Shown here in pieces: positions 6,608-59,743 of a stretch of 64,000 nt of DNA (position 1 is the stretch's first letter; the number at the start of each line of letters is the position of its first letter). A program made the translations under genes and the position numbers. The notes below the pieces were generated by a model. That model searched no databases and was not told the DNA's origin. It worked only from the letters and a program-made list of their open reading frames with translations. Location: NCBI GenBank assembly GCA_030062745.1, contig CP099852.1:21288266-21352265 (forward strand), given 5' to 3'. This stretch comes from Capitulum mitella. Its lineage: Eukaryota; Arthropoda; Thecostraca; Pollicipedomorpha; Pollicipedidae.

Positions 6608-7829
6608 TTAACCCGCGCACGACCGTCGGTCCGTCCCGAACATCGGCGACTGGGGGGGCAGTTGACTGCCCCCCTCTAACTCACGAACGGTTGGTCGCAC
6701 GGTAAAAATAAGCATACCGTTGGAAAGCCTGTGACGAGAAGAGCTCGAAACTGGTCTCATTTTTAGTTTTAGACAATATGTAAGCCAATTTACGCCCTAT
6801 ATATGTTTTCTCATAGCCGACTGCATGAGACCGAGAAATGGCCTGAATCTCAAGGGCTGTGACTAATAACGCATAGGTAAAGGCACCAGCGCACAAGTAA
6901 ATGTCCGCGGATGCCGATACACGTCTAATTTCCTCAGATTTGTTCAATATATACGCCGAAACGTTGAGTTAAAGACACCGTAATTCTCCCGGCCGGCCGT
7001 CAGTGTGCGCTGCTGCCGTATGCGGTACCAAATTGACGGGAACTAATTTTAGCGTTGCTTTATTTTCGGCGAAAAAGGACAATCTATGTCAATTTTATTT
7101 ATCTTTGTGGTCCTTGTGATGGTTTCTCATGCTTAAATTTGGGAAAATTGATTAGTTGCCAATCTACAAAGTTGGCAGAGCTTTATTCGCGAAAGCCTGT
7201 TTATTTCCAAAATATGCTACTTTTTCAAACTTTTTGAGGTTCCTGGTATTACTTACATCTGTGCAAGCTAGTTCTGCCATTTTCTACCCATTCTGAGTAA
7301 TTTATCGTCGATTTTGACGGTGGTACATTTTGGCCAGCTTCGGTTATTCGTGACCTGACCTCAGGTCAATGACTGGAAGTCATTGATACTTTGCCCAATG
7401 ACGGTAACTAGATGTCTGCTTCACTCCACACTAAAAATGTGATGAAATATTCCGTCAATTTCAGGAAAAACGGCGATATGTCTTAAAAACGGGCTTGACC
7501 TTAGGTCAATGACCCGGAAAATTCCGAAAAATCCGAGATAGCAGATTTGTTGCATTTATCACGATCACTAATCGCTGGAAGTATCATTGAGATATCTTCT
7601 TTTGCAAAAAAGTTAGAGGGCGCTAAACTTTTTTTGACATAGGTCTGTTTGACCTGACTTAGGTCAGGCACCTGATCTGACCTGAGGTCAAAAGTTTGAC
7701 ACGAGGCGTAAAATTGATGGAGCAAAAGGTACACAAAGTTTCGTGAATCTGTGTTTGTCAGTTCTCTCGCAATCCCAGAAAAATCTCAGGGGGGGCAGTC
7801 AACTGCCCCCCCAGTCGGGGACGGGTTAA
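6608..7829 (+). mobile_element. TTAA element family B, copy B1
   Basis: About 1.2 kb from TTAA at 6608 to TTAA at 7826. The left end reads CCCGCGCACGACCG and the right end, inverted, reads CCCGTCCCCGACTGG. Both carry a subterminal palindrome, GGGGGGCAGT then ACTGCCCCCC with a 2-bp centre. The interior is AT-rich and has several TGACCT/AGGTCA half-sites around 7350-7700. TTAA target and CCC termini are as in piggyBac elements, but there is no transposase. An 88-residue minus-strand frame at 6681-6947 recurs in copy B3 but is broken in B2. Its right TTAA is shared with the adjoining A element. Confidence 0.85.
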
Positions 7830-9041
7830 CCCTATTCCCGGAGGGCTAGACGGTATGGCCGATTCCCGGCAGGGGGGCGGATTCGGCCCCCCCCTGAGAT
7901 CTCGAGGACTACTCATCTGATTTCATCGCAACAAACGGCAATCGATTTGCCGTGACGTGAACTACATTTTGATAAAAAGAAATTTTCAAAATTTTGAAAT
8001 TTGTGGATACAGGGGGGCAAAAATGGCAAAATGGGGGGTATTATTTTACTTCTTATAACTCCGTTGTTTATGGACCGATTTCGATGAAACTGGCATCAAT
8101 CGAGAGATTATGGATAGGGCTTTTACCATGGGTATGCAAATTTGAAATTTTGAGAAAATTCATGGGCGTTCACAGGGTTTCAAAAATAGGGGGATTAGTT
8201 TTCTAATAACGGAATGAACAAAAGAGGCCAAAACACTTTTTTAGCTTCTGCTAGTCATGTTATGCTAAAGAAGTACAAATCGCATTACAATGTTTGTATA
8301 ATGCTAGCATAAGCGGTGCCAGGGACATAAAAAAGGGGAACTGTCATGGTCACACGTTTCTCAGATGAACTTGTGACCTTTGACCTTAAATGACCTTCAG
8401 TGACCTTGGGGTCACCTGGAATGATGTCGTGTGCATTCAATATTATCTGTAAACGTTTTTAATCGATTAAATTCACTCTATTCCAAAAAAATCATTTTTT
8501 GGCTTTTGCGATATAAGGTACGTGCACTGACATTTTAGGTCATAGCTCCGTGACCCGACCTGATATCAAGCTGAAACTTGGTACACAAGTAGAGGGCATC
8601 TTTCTACGTCATAGATATTCCGGGTTTGGCATTTGAAAAAACGGCGCCGAAATTATTGCGAAAAAACCAATTTTGACTTTTGACCTTGACCTGACCTTGT
8701 AAAGTGACCTCAGATAAACAAAATTACATATGCACATTGCCCAACTATTTAGCTATATATTCATATAAAGTTTTAAGTTGTATCTTAAAAACTCTGTTTT
8801 TGGCAGACATTTTCCTTTTACCCTCAACATGGCCAAAAATGACCTGAGGTGCCTCCCAAAAACGTTGCCTGGCTCCGCCCCTGAGCAAAAAAGAATTTCG
8901 AAATTTTGTCACGGCGCGTAGAAGGAATAGGTAGGAAAAGTCACCAAGTTTCGTGAAGCTGCGTTAAAAAGCCTGGAATTGGCAAGCAAAAAACCCGAGG
9001 GGGGGCGGATTCCGGCCCCCCCCTGCCGGGAATAGGGTTAA
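7826..9041 (+). mobile_element. TTAA element family A, copy A1
   Basis: A 1.2-kb non-autonomous element running TTAA-CCCTATTCCCGG to CCGGGAATAGGG-TTAA, with G/C-rich subterminal hairpins near both ends. It shows a perfect DR1, TGACCTTTGACCT, at 8374-8386. Conserved internal blocks recur in every copy: ACTCCGTTGTTTATGGACCG, an imperfect dyad around GGCAATCGATTTGCC, and TTTTTGGCAGACATTTTCC. No transposase is present. This is the reference orientation for the family. Confidence 0.88.
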
Positions 9042-9329
9042 ATGGAGTAGGAAGCTACCCCATTTGAGGAAATCCACCACGGATATGTAATGGTACCGGT
9101 GATGTGTACACCACAGAATGAGTAATTCTCAACATTGGGGCACCTGGCTCCCATTTACACGGCTCTGCTACAACATTTGAAGAAAGGCTTCTTGAACTGC
9201 ATATGTATTTTATGTCTGCCTCTGACATCATGCAGTGCCTACCTCAACTGATGGAGCTGTTTTTACCTGTGCCAGTATGCAAAATAGGAAAATAGGAGAC
9301 TGCCAGGTATAACCCATGTAACAGAGGAA

Positions 9330-9760
9330 GACCACTGATGCAACCATGGAGACCACCGGAGACGTTCGGAGAGCCCATGGCACTGCACAGGGGCTCTGAA
9401 GTCGCCAGAAGGTCTTTTGTTACTGCCAGAGGTCCCATAAGACGGCAAAAATATTCCCCGGAAACGACAAGCAGGGCACCTGGGACAACAGGGATTCCAC
9501 CGAAACTACCAGAGAGAGGTCTTTGTAACTGTTAATTAGCAGTCTCTAACTATAGGGGCCCTTGAGACGACCAGAAAGGCCCCTGAAACTTCTAAATCTC
9601 GAGACGTCCAGACAGCTCCTGAAACGGCCAAAGGACCCAGAGCATTTCCAGACGCGCCTCTGTCGCGGCAGAGAGAGACTTATAGAGACCTTGTTACTGC
9701 CTGATGAGTTCCTTAGACGGCAAAAATTTCCCAGGGATGACGGGGGAACCCAAGCGCAGT
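9330..9760 (+). repeat. Degenerate minisatellite, roughly 30-bp units
   Basis: Successive units share a CCCCTGAAAC then (G)GACGNCCAGA pattern, for example near 9540-9680. The reverse complement of this pattern recurs at 56,690-56,915, so the two arrays look like one family in opposite orientation. Long open frames across the array are by-products of the repeat. Confidence 0.55.
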
Positions 9761-58017: not shown

Positions 58018-58139
58018 TGTGCGCTGTTTTTTTCCGCGACGCTCTAGGATCCACGTTGTGGGAATGGCCGGGGTCTTACTGCGCCCCCCCCCCCTTATAC
58101 GTCCGCGTTATGCAGAAGCCCCATACGGGCAAGGGTTAA
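58018..58139 (-). repeat. Family C terminus, copy 1
   Basis: Read inward from TTAA 58,136-58,139 on the minus strand: CCCTTGCCCGTATGGGG, CTTCTGCATAACGCGGACG, then a long G-run. The inner side joins truncated A9. No partner left end is seen. Confidence 0.55.
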
Positions 58140-59660
58140 TGGTTTTCGGGCAGAATTTCGTCGGACTAAAATTCGTAGGACAATAGTTCGTTGGGCAATA
58201 GTTCGTCCAGGACAAAACTTCGCCAAACAAAAGTTCGTTTAGGGCAAAAGTTCGTGTCGCGGAAGTTTTTATGGATAAAGTTCGTGCAGGACAAAAGTTC
58301 GTCCAGGGTAAACGTTCGTCTCGGTGAAGTTTGTATAGGACGAAAGTTCGCCCAGGACAAAAAGTTTGTCTGGCAGAAATTCTTTTAGGGCAAAAGTTCG
58401 TCTTGGGCAAAACCTCGTCCAGGAAAAAAAAAACTGTCCGTGTCTTATGGCACTCATACAAGAGTCCTTTACGGCAATATATGTATAGTCGATAAAAATT
58501 GCTTCCAGACGACAACTAATGGAAGCATGCTGGTGAATAAGGCTCTGATTCTCCATGGCCTGGTCCGGAATCGATTCCATTTCAACCTGTGCACATCCAA
58601 CATTAGCTACTGTGCATCGTATTGACCTCCTATAGTCACAGGCGAATGGGTAACTGGACCAATGTTCGTAAGTCACGTGTTCGTATGGAAAAGGCTCGTA
58701 GCCAAAGGTTCGTATGCACGAGGATCGTATAATAAAAGGTTCGTATTGTAAAAGGTTCCTATCGGAAAAGCTTCGTAACGTAGAAAGTTTGAACTCCAAA
58801 AGGTTAGTACGAAAGGTTTCTAAGGAAAAAGATTCGTAAGGGAAAAAGTTCTTAAGGAAAACTCTTCGTAGCCAAACGCTCGTAGACAAAGATTCGTATC
58901 GCGAAAGAGTCGTTCGGGTTTGCGCCGATAGGATACTAGAGGCCGCAGGCAAATAAAGGGTGCGATCGGACTTGGTTCGGTCTAACAAAGAGGTTAGGAT
59001 ACGTTAGGCTAAGTCAGGCTAGGTTAGGTTCGGTTACTATCTTAGATCCGTTCTATTTTCGTTCTGAACCTTAAGTTCACGAACATTTGGTTACGAATCA
59101 TTTTCCTTACGAATCTTTTCCCTTACGAACCTTTTTCCTATGAATTCTTTCCATACGAACTTTTTGCAGTACGAACCTTTTCCACTAGCGAGATGAAATC
59201 GTCCTTGACAAACTTTTGCCCTTGACGAACTCCTGTTCTAAACAAACTTCTGTGATCATGATGATGATGATAGTGATTCGAAATGACGGACTTTTGTCCT
59301 AGACAAACTTTTGCTCCTTCAAGCTTTTCCCTTACAGGAACTTTTAGACGGGCTTCTGAGAGAACTTTTGTCCCAGACGAATCTTCCTCCTAGAAGAATT
59401 TTTGCTCCATGCCAACTTCTGCAAGACGAACTTTTGTCCTGGACGAACTTTGTTCCCGACGAAGTTTTATCCTCGAGGAATTTTTGCCCAAGACGACTTT
59501 ACCTTTCACGGCGAACTTTTCCACGGCGAACTTTTCCCCTAGATGAACTTTTGGCCTAGACGAACTTTTACAGGACGAACTTCTGCACGACGAACATTTA
59601 TCCGACGAACTTTCATCTGATAAACTTCTGCGGTGCGAACTTTTGCCCCAAAATCTATGG
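58140..59660. repeat. Foldback of GTTCG tandem repeats
   Basis: The outer left (58,145-58,430) is built of about 17-bp units like GGACAAAAGTTCGTCCA. The inner left (58,650-58,920) is GGAAAAGGTTCGTA-like. The inner right (59,050-59,190) and outer right (59,190-59,655) are the same two unit types in inverted order and orientation (TACGAACCTTTTTCC; GACGAACTTTTGTCC). About 200 bp of non-repeat sequence lies at 58,440-58,645 and a TTAGG-containing stretch at the centre. This nested symmetry fits foldback-type elements. All long frames here are repeat artefacts. Confidence 0.72.
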
Positions 59661-59679
59661 GAATGAATTAGGCTTCGTA

Positions 59680-59743
59680 CTACCACCCCCTCCCCCCACA
59701 AACGTCCGCGTTGTATAGAAGCCCTTATACAGGCGATGGTTAA
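59680..59743 (-). repeat. Family C terminus, copy 2
   Basis: From TTAA 59,740-59,743 inward on the minus strand: CCATCGCCTGTATAAGGG, CTTCTATACAACGCGGACG, then a G-run. Same orientation as copy 1, so the two flank the foldback as direct repeats. Confidence 0.6.

Follow-up and report, generated by a model that had tools for sequence, protein, structure and literature searches.

The 64,000-nucleotide stretch of DNA analysed here, referred to as the window, lies in the genome of the barnacle Capitulum mitella (GCA_030062745.1, contig CP099852.1, positions 21,288,266 to 21,352,265 of the forward strand) and holds numerous copies of two element families, A and B. Both are non-autonomous, gene-less and TTAA-flanked, and each is about 1.21 kb long. 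The two families share one plan, as the first-pass annotation of the window had held: CCC tips adjoin TTAA, a G/C palindrome lies inside each end, and an extra block separates tip and palindrome at one end, here called the long end. A and B are quite probably piggyBac-type miniature inverted-repeat transposable elements (MITEs), with a short end like the piggyBac left end (LE) and a long end like its right end (RE), moved by a transposase of the piggyBac lineage. The copies of A and B in the window, with the parts of one copy of each, are as follows.

6608..7829, + strand: B1, family B, TTAA on both flanks, long end left
6625..6651, + strand: extra block of B1 (positions 14-40), which separates the palindrome from the 13-bp tip; the G-run begins at bp 41 of the long end and at bp 14 of the short end
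6652..6674, + strand: long-end G/C palindrome of B1, centre 52.5 bp from the tip
7789..7812, - strand: short-end G/C palindrome of B1, centre 25.5 bp from the tip
7826..9041, + strand: A1, family A, TTAA on both flanks (the left one in common with B1), long end left
7842..7869, + strand: 28-bp extra block of A1 (positions 13-40), its last 8 bp a repeat of ATTCCCGG
7872..7894, + strand: long-end G/C palindrome of A1, centre 53
8999..9023, - strand: short-end G/C palindrome of A1, centre 28
14188..15400, - strand: family A, full length, TTAA on both sides
18681..19878, no single strand: chimeric A, TTAA on both sides, its two long ends inverted (A 1-326 on +, A 1-849 on -)
25969..27190, - strand: family A, full length, TTAA on both sides
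30052..30678, - strand: family A fragment with the long end
34474..35695, + strand: B2, family B; right flank TTAG
37497..38735, + strand: family A, 86% identical to the consensus, TTAA on both sides
38772..41203, + strand: family A split by the nested B3; tip mutated to CGC
39391..40618, - strand: B3, family B, inserted at TTAA within the A element
47429..48595, + strand: family A without the short tip (stops at A 1166)
56917..58017, + strand: family A truncated at A 1099

The consensus of family A is 1,209 bp long and was built from 37 genomic copies and three copies of the window. The copies are young, with a median divergence of 4.5% from the consensus. The tip CCCTATTCCCGG adjoins TTAA at both ends; it reads CCCT and fits the CC[C/T]T terminal motif that, together with terminal inverted repeats (TIRs) of 12-19 bp, belongs to the published definition of piggyBac. 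In the short end CCCTATTCCCGG is followed by CAGGGGGG...CCCCCC. The long end begins with the same 12 bp, which make up the whole of the terminal inverted repeat before the sequences diverge, and continues with the 28-bp block at positions 13-40 and then the palindrome. As had been noted in the first reading, the block ends in a second ATTCCCGG, an 8-bp repeat that starts at bp 33, the first lying at bp 5. Of 53 long ends examined, 51 have this second motif at bp 33, and in the remaining two its ATTCC carries a substitution while the spacing is unchanged. When both G-runs are set to 7, bp 33-66 of the long end match bp 5-38 of the short end at 32 of 34 positions. Motif and palindrome recur as a unit, displaced inwards in the long end.

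The genomic copies of A come from contig C1: from the first 100 tip matches listed, those exact tips were kept that face each other at a distance of about 1.2 kb; unpaired tips are left out of this sample, and its tips and TTAA were selected by the search. Every one of the 37 has one long and one short end. In 35 of them the pairing was scored by the motif; the remaining two carry a substitution there, and the alignment spans A 1-1209 in every copy.

Family B was aligned from four copies that are 93-95% identical, together with the diverged relatives B' and B'', which are 74-76% identical to B. Its tip, CCCG..., adjoins TTAA, and its terminal inverted repeat is short, with the first 4 bp identical and 9 of 13 overall. 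In the short end, all six sequences have the start of the G-run at bp 14. The long-end G-run starts at bp 41 in B'' as well as in the four B copies; that of B' starts at bp 45, and its CGAC motif stands at 35 instead of 36. The extra block, which had been put at 28-31 bp for both families, is therefore 28 bp in A and 27 bp in all four B copies. A repeat of the tip motif occurs in the B lineage too, where some variants have GCACGACC at 6 and GCCCGACT at 33; it is weaker in B1.

The first-pass annotation was also right that A and B are unrelated in most of their sequence. Their aligned identity is 44-47%, not clearly above that of unrelated sequence after gapping, and there is one weak colinear match near the short end (70 bp, 73%). 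For B1 and B2 this match exceeds every shuffle of B1 that was scored (378 of 400), and a distant common descent of the two families is possible on this sequence evidence.

The palindromes fall into two registers. They were scored as two-fold symmetry over 11 bp on each side; shuffles with interior composition score at least 8 in 10% and at least 9 in 1% of trials, and shuffles with the composition of the ends themselves score at least 9 in 1-6% and at least 10 in at most 0.4%. The A consensus has its centres at 27 in the short end (11/11) and 55 in the long end (10/11), and single A copies with an intact core have medians of 27.5 (26 of 48 short ends) and 55.5 (43 of 53 long ends). In the four B copies the centres lie at 24.5-26.5 and 52.5-56.5, with scores of 9-10/11. 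The piggyBac element of Trichoplusia ni has a binding site for a dimer of cysteine-rich domains (CRDs) at bp 17-33 of its left end, with a two-fold axis at about 25 (PMC7351741). Its 19-bp repeats lie 3 and 31 nt inside 13-bp TIRs (PMC12324416), so that its sites centre at about 25 and about 53. The B copies and the A consensus match these published positions within about 3.5 bp. The agreement with piggyBac is a close one of geometry, for the most part to 2-3 bp, and has no counterpart in the sequence. In B' the short-end palindrome lies at 25.5 (7/11), and the long end has a tie between 60.0 and 52.5 (both 9/11); at the latter, by eye, the changed arms still pair, with GGGCGG/CCGCCC for GGGGGG/CCCCCC.

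Both families are abundant throughout the genome, which was searched over 477 Mb in 16 contigs. The 16-mer TTAACCCTATTCCCGG, which represents exact A tips, occurs 13,225 times (6,640 + 6,585), with none for the reversed control and about 0.2 expected by chance. There are 4,768 A long ends, and the spacing is exact in 97 of 100 among the matches listed. The B-lineage long ends, searched as TTAACCCG, a gap of 15-44 and CGACTGGGGG, gave 2,872 matches (control 1), of which 94 of 100 among those listed have the same 49-base length; 54 of the 2,872 have a longer gap. The spacing is kept although the B-lineage sequence between the motifs varies: the 22-base spacer falls to 36% identity, with a median of 68%, among 28 distinct 49-base strings hand-picked from 92 printed in a choice that favoured diversity. 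Family A accounts for 15.9% of the window and 3.7% of the 200 kb upstream; the Capitulum mitella genome report gives total repeats as 3.53% (PMC8416341).

The target is TTAA. In the window and the 200 kb upstream, a BLAST search with TTAA absent from the query found it on both sides of 10 of 10 full-length A copies, nine of them independent since two share flanks, and it precedes every A tip whose alignment reaches the end, 16 long and 11 short. One copy, at 14188..15400, likely lies in a duplicated region because a copy in the upstream 200 kb has identical 8-bp flanks. Where B3 is nested in A, the two A halves overlap by exactly four consensus positions (610-613), which are the duplicated target. 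On contig C1 the sample L003 has an A long end (1-318) and B-family pieces within 2 kb of each other, so insertions of A and B cluster or nest elsewhere too.

Substitutions point to constraint on the long end. The repeated tip motif (A 33-40) has 2 substitutions in 320 site-copies (0.6%), compared with 5.4% in the interior. At sites without a common variant, the block at 13-40 has a rate of 1.2% against a mean of 3.4%, below all 942 overlapping interior 28-bp windows.

Several observations weigh against a functional, piggyBac-like reading of the ends. The strong depletion of the block requires the removal of sites with a common variant; over all sites, including one common C/T site, the block stands only at the 6th percentile. 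Indels outside homopolymers are about 60-fold rarer than substitutions in A. Although bp 13-40 carry no indel in 40 aligned copies, 49% of interior 42-bp windows likewise have none outside homopolymers. Because indels are so rare, constant spacer length is weak evidence of selection, most B spacers would be expected to keep their length without it, and its use as stand-alone proof was rejected. The register is also less sharp in single copies of A, in which the cores spread over 23.5-33.5 in the short end and 53.5-59.5 in the long end because G-run lengths vary, and the medians lie about 2.5 bp beyond the 25 and 53 of piggyBac. B' and B'' are less clean as support for the register: the palindromes of B'' are inside the shuffled range (7/11 at 50.5 and 48.5, 6/11 at 28), and the long tips of B' and B'' are GCC and TCT. 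The fourth tip base of B itself, a G, misses the CC[C/T]T motif. The colinear match between A and B is not above shuffles for B3, B4, B' and B'', so that only two of six B sequences pass. Finally, the autonomous piggyBac with the same ends that the first-pass annotation had looked to was not found among the five transposase matches read out of 118; the ends were resolved in four of these, belonging to two families, and have different tips.

The 118 matches are to the piggyBac transposase domain DDE_Tnp_1_7 (PF13843) genome-wide; many have open frames, and some loci are counted twice, split by frame. The two resolved families are TTAA-flanked piggyBac elements: L066 and L067 are 2.9 kb long with tips CCCATTAACGCCCAG, and L068 and L069 are 2.66 kb long with tips CC[CT]ATTAGTGCCCA and CCCTTTAGTGCCCA. 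Their transposase frames have 557-613 codons, the proteins are about 95% identical within each pair, and both families have likely been active recently. L067 and L068 match the transposase domain across its entire length, and L068 is by sequence nearer to piggyBat than to piggyBac. As a source of A and B these four were rejected, their tips being different. Closer to the locus, the window and the 200 kb upstream gave no match to five barnacle transposases and, in a tblastn search with T. ni piggyBac, none at E 1; an A-like short tip in the upstream sample L046 was likewise rejected as the start of an autonomous element for want of a transposase match in that region. The source of A and B is likely an autonomous element elsewhere in the genome, or an extinct one. 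TTAA, CCC tips, unequal palindromes and a repeated tip motif fit the earlier suggestion of a piggyBac-like lineage that distinguishes its two ends; since the autonomous partner was not found among the matches read, we can only infer that a single transposase lineage served both A and B.

The resident elements could themselves be the movers, if L066-L069-type transposases cross-mobilised A and B and needed only TTAA and CCC. These families have open frames and TTAA ends, an autonomous L068-type element (L068 188-3701) sits at TTAA inside an A-like element 77% identical to A, so that both are present in the genome, and the 5' end of L068 has a weak two-fold site at 25.5 (7/11). However, past the CCC their tips (CCCATTAACGCCCAG; CC[CT]ATTAGTGCCCA) are unlike those of A and B, and the best palindromes they have (7-8/11) are inside the shuffled range, which makes cross-mobilisation rather improbable. 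A mover from another TTAA-targeting superfamily such as Kolobok is very improbable. In its favour, Kolobok also duplicates TTAA, a target that alone does not tell it apart from piggyBac, and no piggyBac bearing the ends of A or B appeared in the five matches read. Against it, the tips in CCC and the palindromes in two registers agree with what has been published for piggyBac, whose transposases are plentiful in this genome.

A different kind of objection is that each family merely inherited its ends from one master copy, with the block, palindromes and spacing functionless and the match to piggyBac a coincidence. The youth of the A copies, the rarity of indels, which makes constant spacing largely expected, the 6th percentile of the whole block and the 2-2.5 bp by which the A centres exceed those of piggyBac are all in keeping with such inheritance. 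It does not account for a repeated tip motif, absent from the search pattern, that has about one ninth of the substitution rate of the interior, or for a block whose rate, common variants aside, is below every interior window. Nearly the same two centres are also shared by A, B and piggyBac, although the three do not align in sequence, and the 52.5 candidate in the long end of B' keeps its pairing arms, although the short end of B' reaches only 7/11. On balance mere inheritance from a master copy is unlikely, and movement of A and B by a transposase of the piggyBac lineage is the better explanation.

By analogy with the piggyBac structures, the ends of A and B could work as follows. The transposase would read the short end as a piggyBac left end and the long end as a right end. 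Its core domains would sit on the tip motif and two C-terminal zinc (cysteine-rich) domains, as a dimer, on the palindrome, which is better read as a putative two-fold dimer site in duplex DNA than as an extruded hairpin. In the long end, the displaced unit of motif and palindrome may hold a second, inner transposase dimer, while the tip motif alone would feed the active site, and a fully competent complex would assemble only from a long/short pair. The long/long chimera at 18681-19878 is a natural test case for this pairing prediction, though one copy decides nothing. Distant piggyBac lineages may, tentatively and at somewhat less than even chances, keep a common "25/53 rule", with a dimer site at about 25 bp in one end and a 27-28-bp block with a second motif in the other. 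If true, this rule would resemble the 12/23 rule of V(D)J recombination, in that only unlike ends pair productively, and the sequences of tip, block and palindrome might change freely while the geometry stays.

For the other ends to which the first-pass annotation had extended the plan, namely C, E and the 23.0-kb hairpins, there is no support. The hairpins and the E ends lie as follows:

23055..23130, + strand: the 23.0-kb hairpins, a solo TTAACCC end with hairpin centres at 21 and 54.5
58023..58138, - strand: E-type solo end with an approximate inner limit; its palindromes do not exceed the shuffled range
59640..59743, - strand: second E-type solo end, oriented like the first and again with an approximate inner limit; best palindrome 7/11 at 18.5

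The E ends (at 58138 and 59743) and further tips at 27,698 and 32,070 were rejected, with palindromes of 6-8/11 that shuffles also reach and no partner ends identified. The 23.0-kb hairpins score 6-8/11, with no partner end identified, but may still follow the plan, as one of them centres at 54.5 (8/11) and another at 21. A truncated family F in the upstream sample L046 (3231), also set aside, has a weak palindrome at 55.5 (score 4 by a separate measure) at its one end. The interiors of A, B and F contain many AGGTCA/TGACCT-type half-sites, direct and inverted (seen by eye and uncounted), which we take to resemble nuclear-receptor sites.

Two protein-coding frames lie among the elements. A cytochrome P450 frame of 464 codons at 10814-12208 on the - strand matches PF00067 (E 1.2e-92, profile positions 2-423 of 462) and has its nearest matches among barnacle CYP2-like proteins (66% Pollicipes, 60% Amphibalanus). 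The frame at 20472-22058 on the + strand has a Methyltransf_FA match and a PAN match slightly under the cut-off, and its product is probably a secreted or surface protein. The 200 kb upstream (L046-L065) contain a 13.7-kb inverted duplication at 99.4% identity and a 7.5-kb one at 97.8%, each accompanied by shorter mirrored pieces around about the same centre; these are possibly haplotypes scaffolded head to head rather than biology.

One of the closest known systems is the piggyBac element (IFP2) of T. ni. Its longer end lies downstream of the transposase gene. With LE35 and RE63 as its ends, it shares with A and B the TTAA target, the CCC tips and palindromes at about 25 in the short end and 53 in the long end, and its long end, like that of A, is 28 bp longer and has a repeat of the tip motif by the palindrome (PMC7351741, PMC12324416). 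The RE bp 34-63 are nearly identical to LE bp 7-35. With the native transposase, LE/LE pairs are inactive and RE/RE pairs excise without integration, while a hyperactive transposase is more permissive. Inserting 5 bp into the piggyBac block, or scrambling its repeated motif, cost about half of the activity in each case. The authors of the structure called the unequal organisation of the ends "a puzzling arrangement". A and B differ from it in their unrelated sequence, their G/C-rich palindromes of about 22-27 bp in place of a 19-bp site, the lack of a transposase gene, the A centres about 2 bp further in and the 27-bp block of B.

Other close systems share parts of the plan. piggyBat of Myotis lucifugus also uses TTAA and has unequal ends, with tip-proximal motifs, and palindromes on one end, and its complex is tetrameric and asymmetric (PMC11707139, PMC13405395). 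Its right end has no palindrome and its left-end motifs have a 44-bp period, in contrast to the one palindrome per end of A and B. The coral piggyBac-type MITEs (CMITE) of Acropora are, like A and B, short, TTAA-flanked and non-autonomous with CCC tips; they are about 100 bp long rather than 1.2 kb and are marked by a conserved interior, and the accessible part of their description mentions no two-register palindromes (PMC2872659). Human piggyBac-like elements (pbles) such as MER75, MER85 and Looper, and invertebrate pbles, have TTAA and inner or subterminal inverted repeats at both ends, a common pble feature, in other hosts and with other sequences; a shared spacing rule is not stated in the accessible text (PMC12324416). 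Inner palindromes at both pble ends and the unequal spacing in T. ni piggyBac are therefore already known. The titles and abstract openings surveyed show no work on barnacle piggyBac MITEs or a conserved 25/53 spacing, and what is new against the literature surveyed is the same two-register geometry in unrelated families. The A and B copies form a large natural data set on the spacings, motifs and end pairings tolerated by a piggyBac-type complex, and with thousands of copies of nearly the same geometry and unrelated sequence they provide an independent replicate of the end layout of piggyBac.

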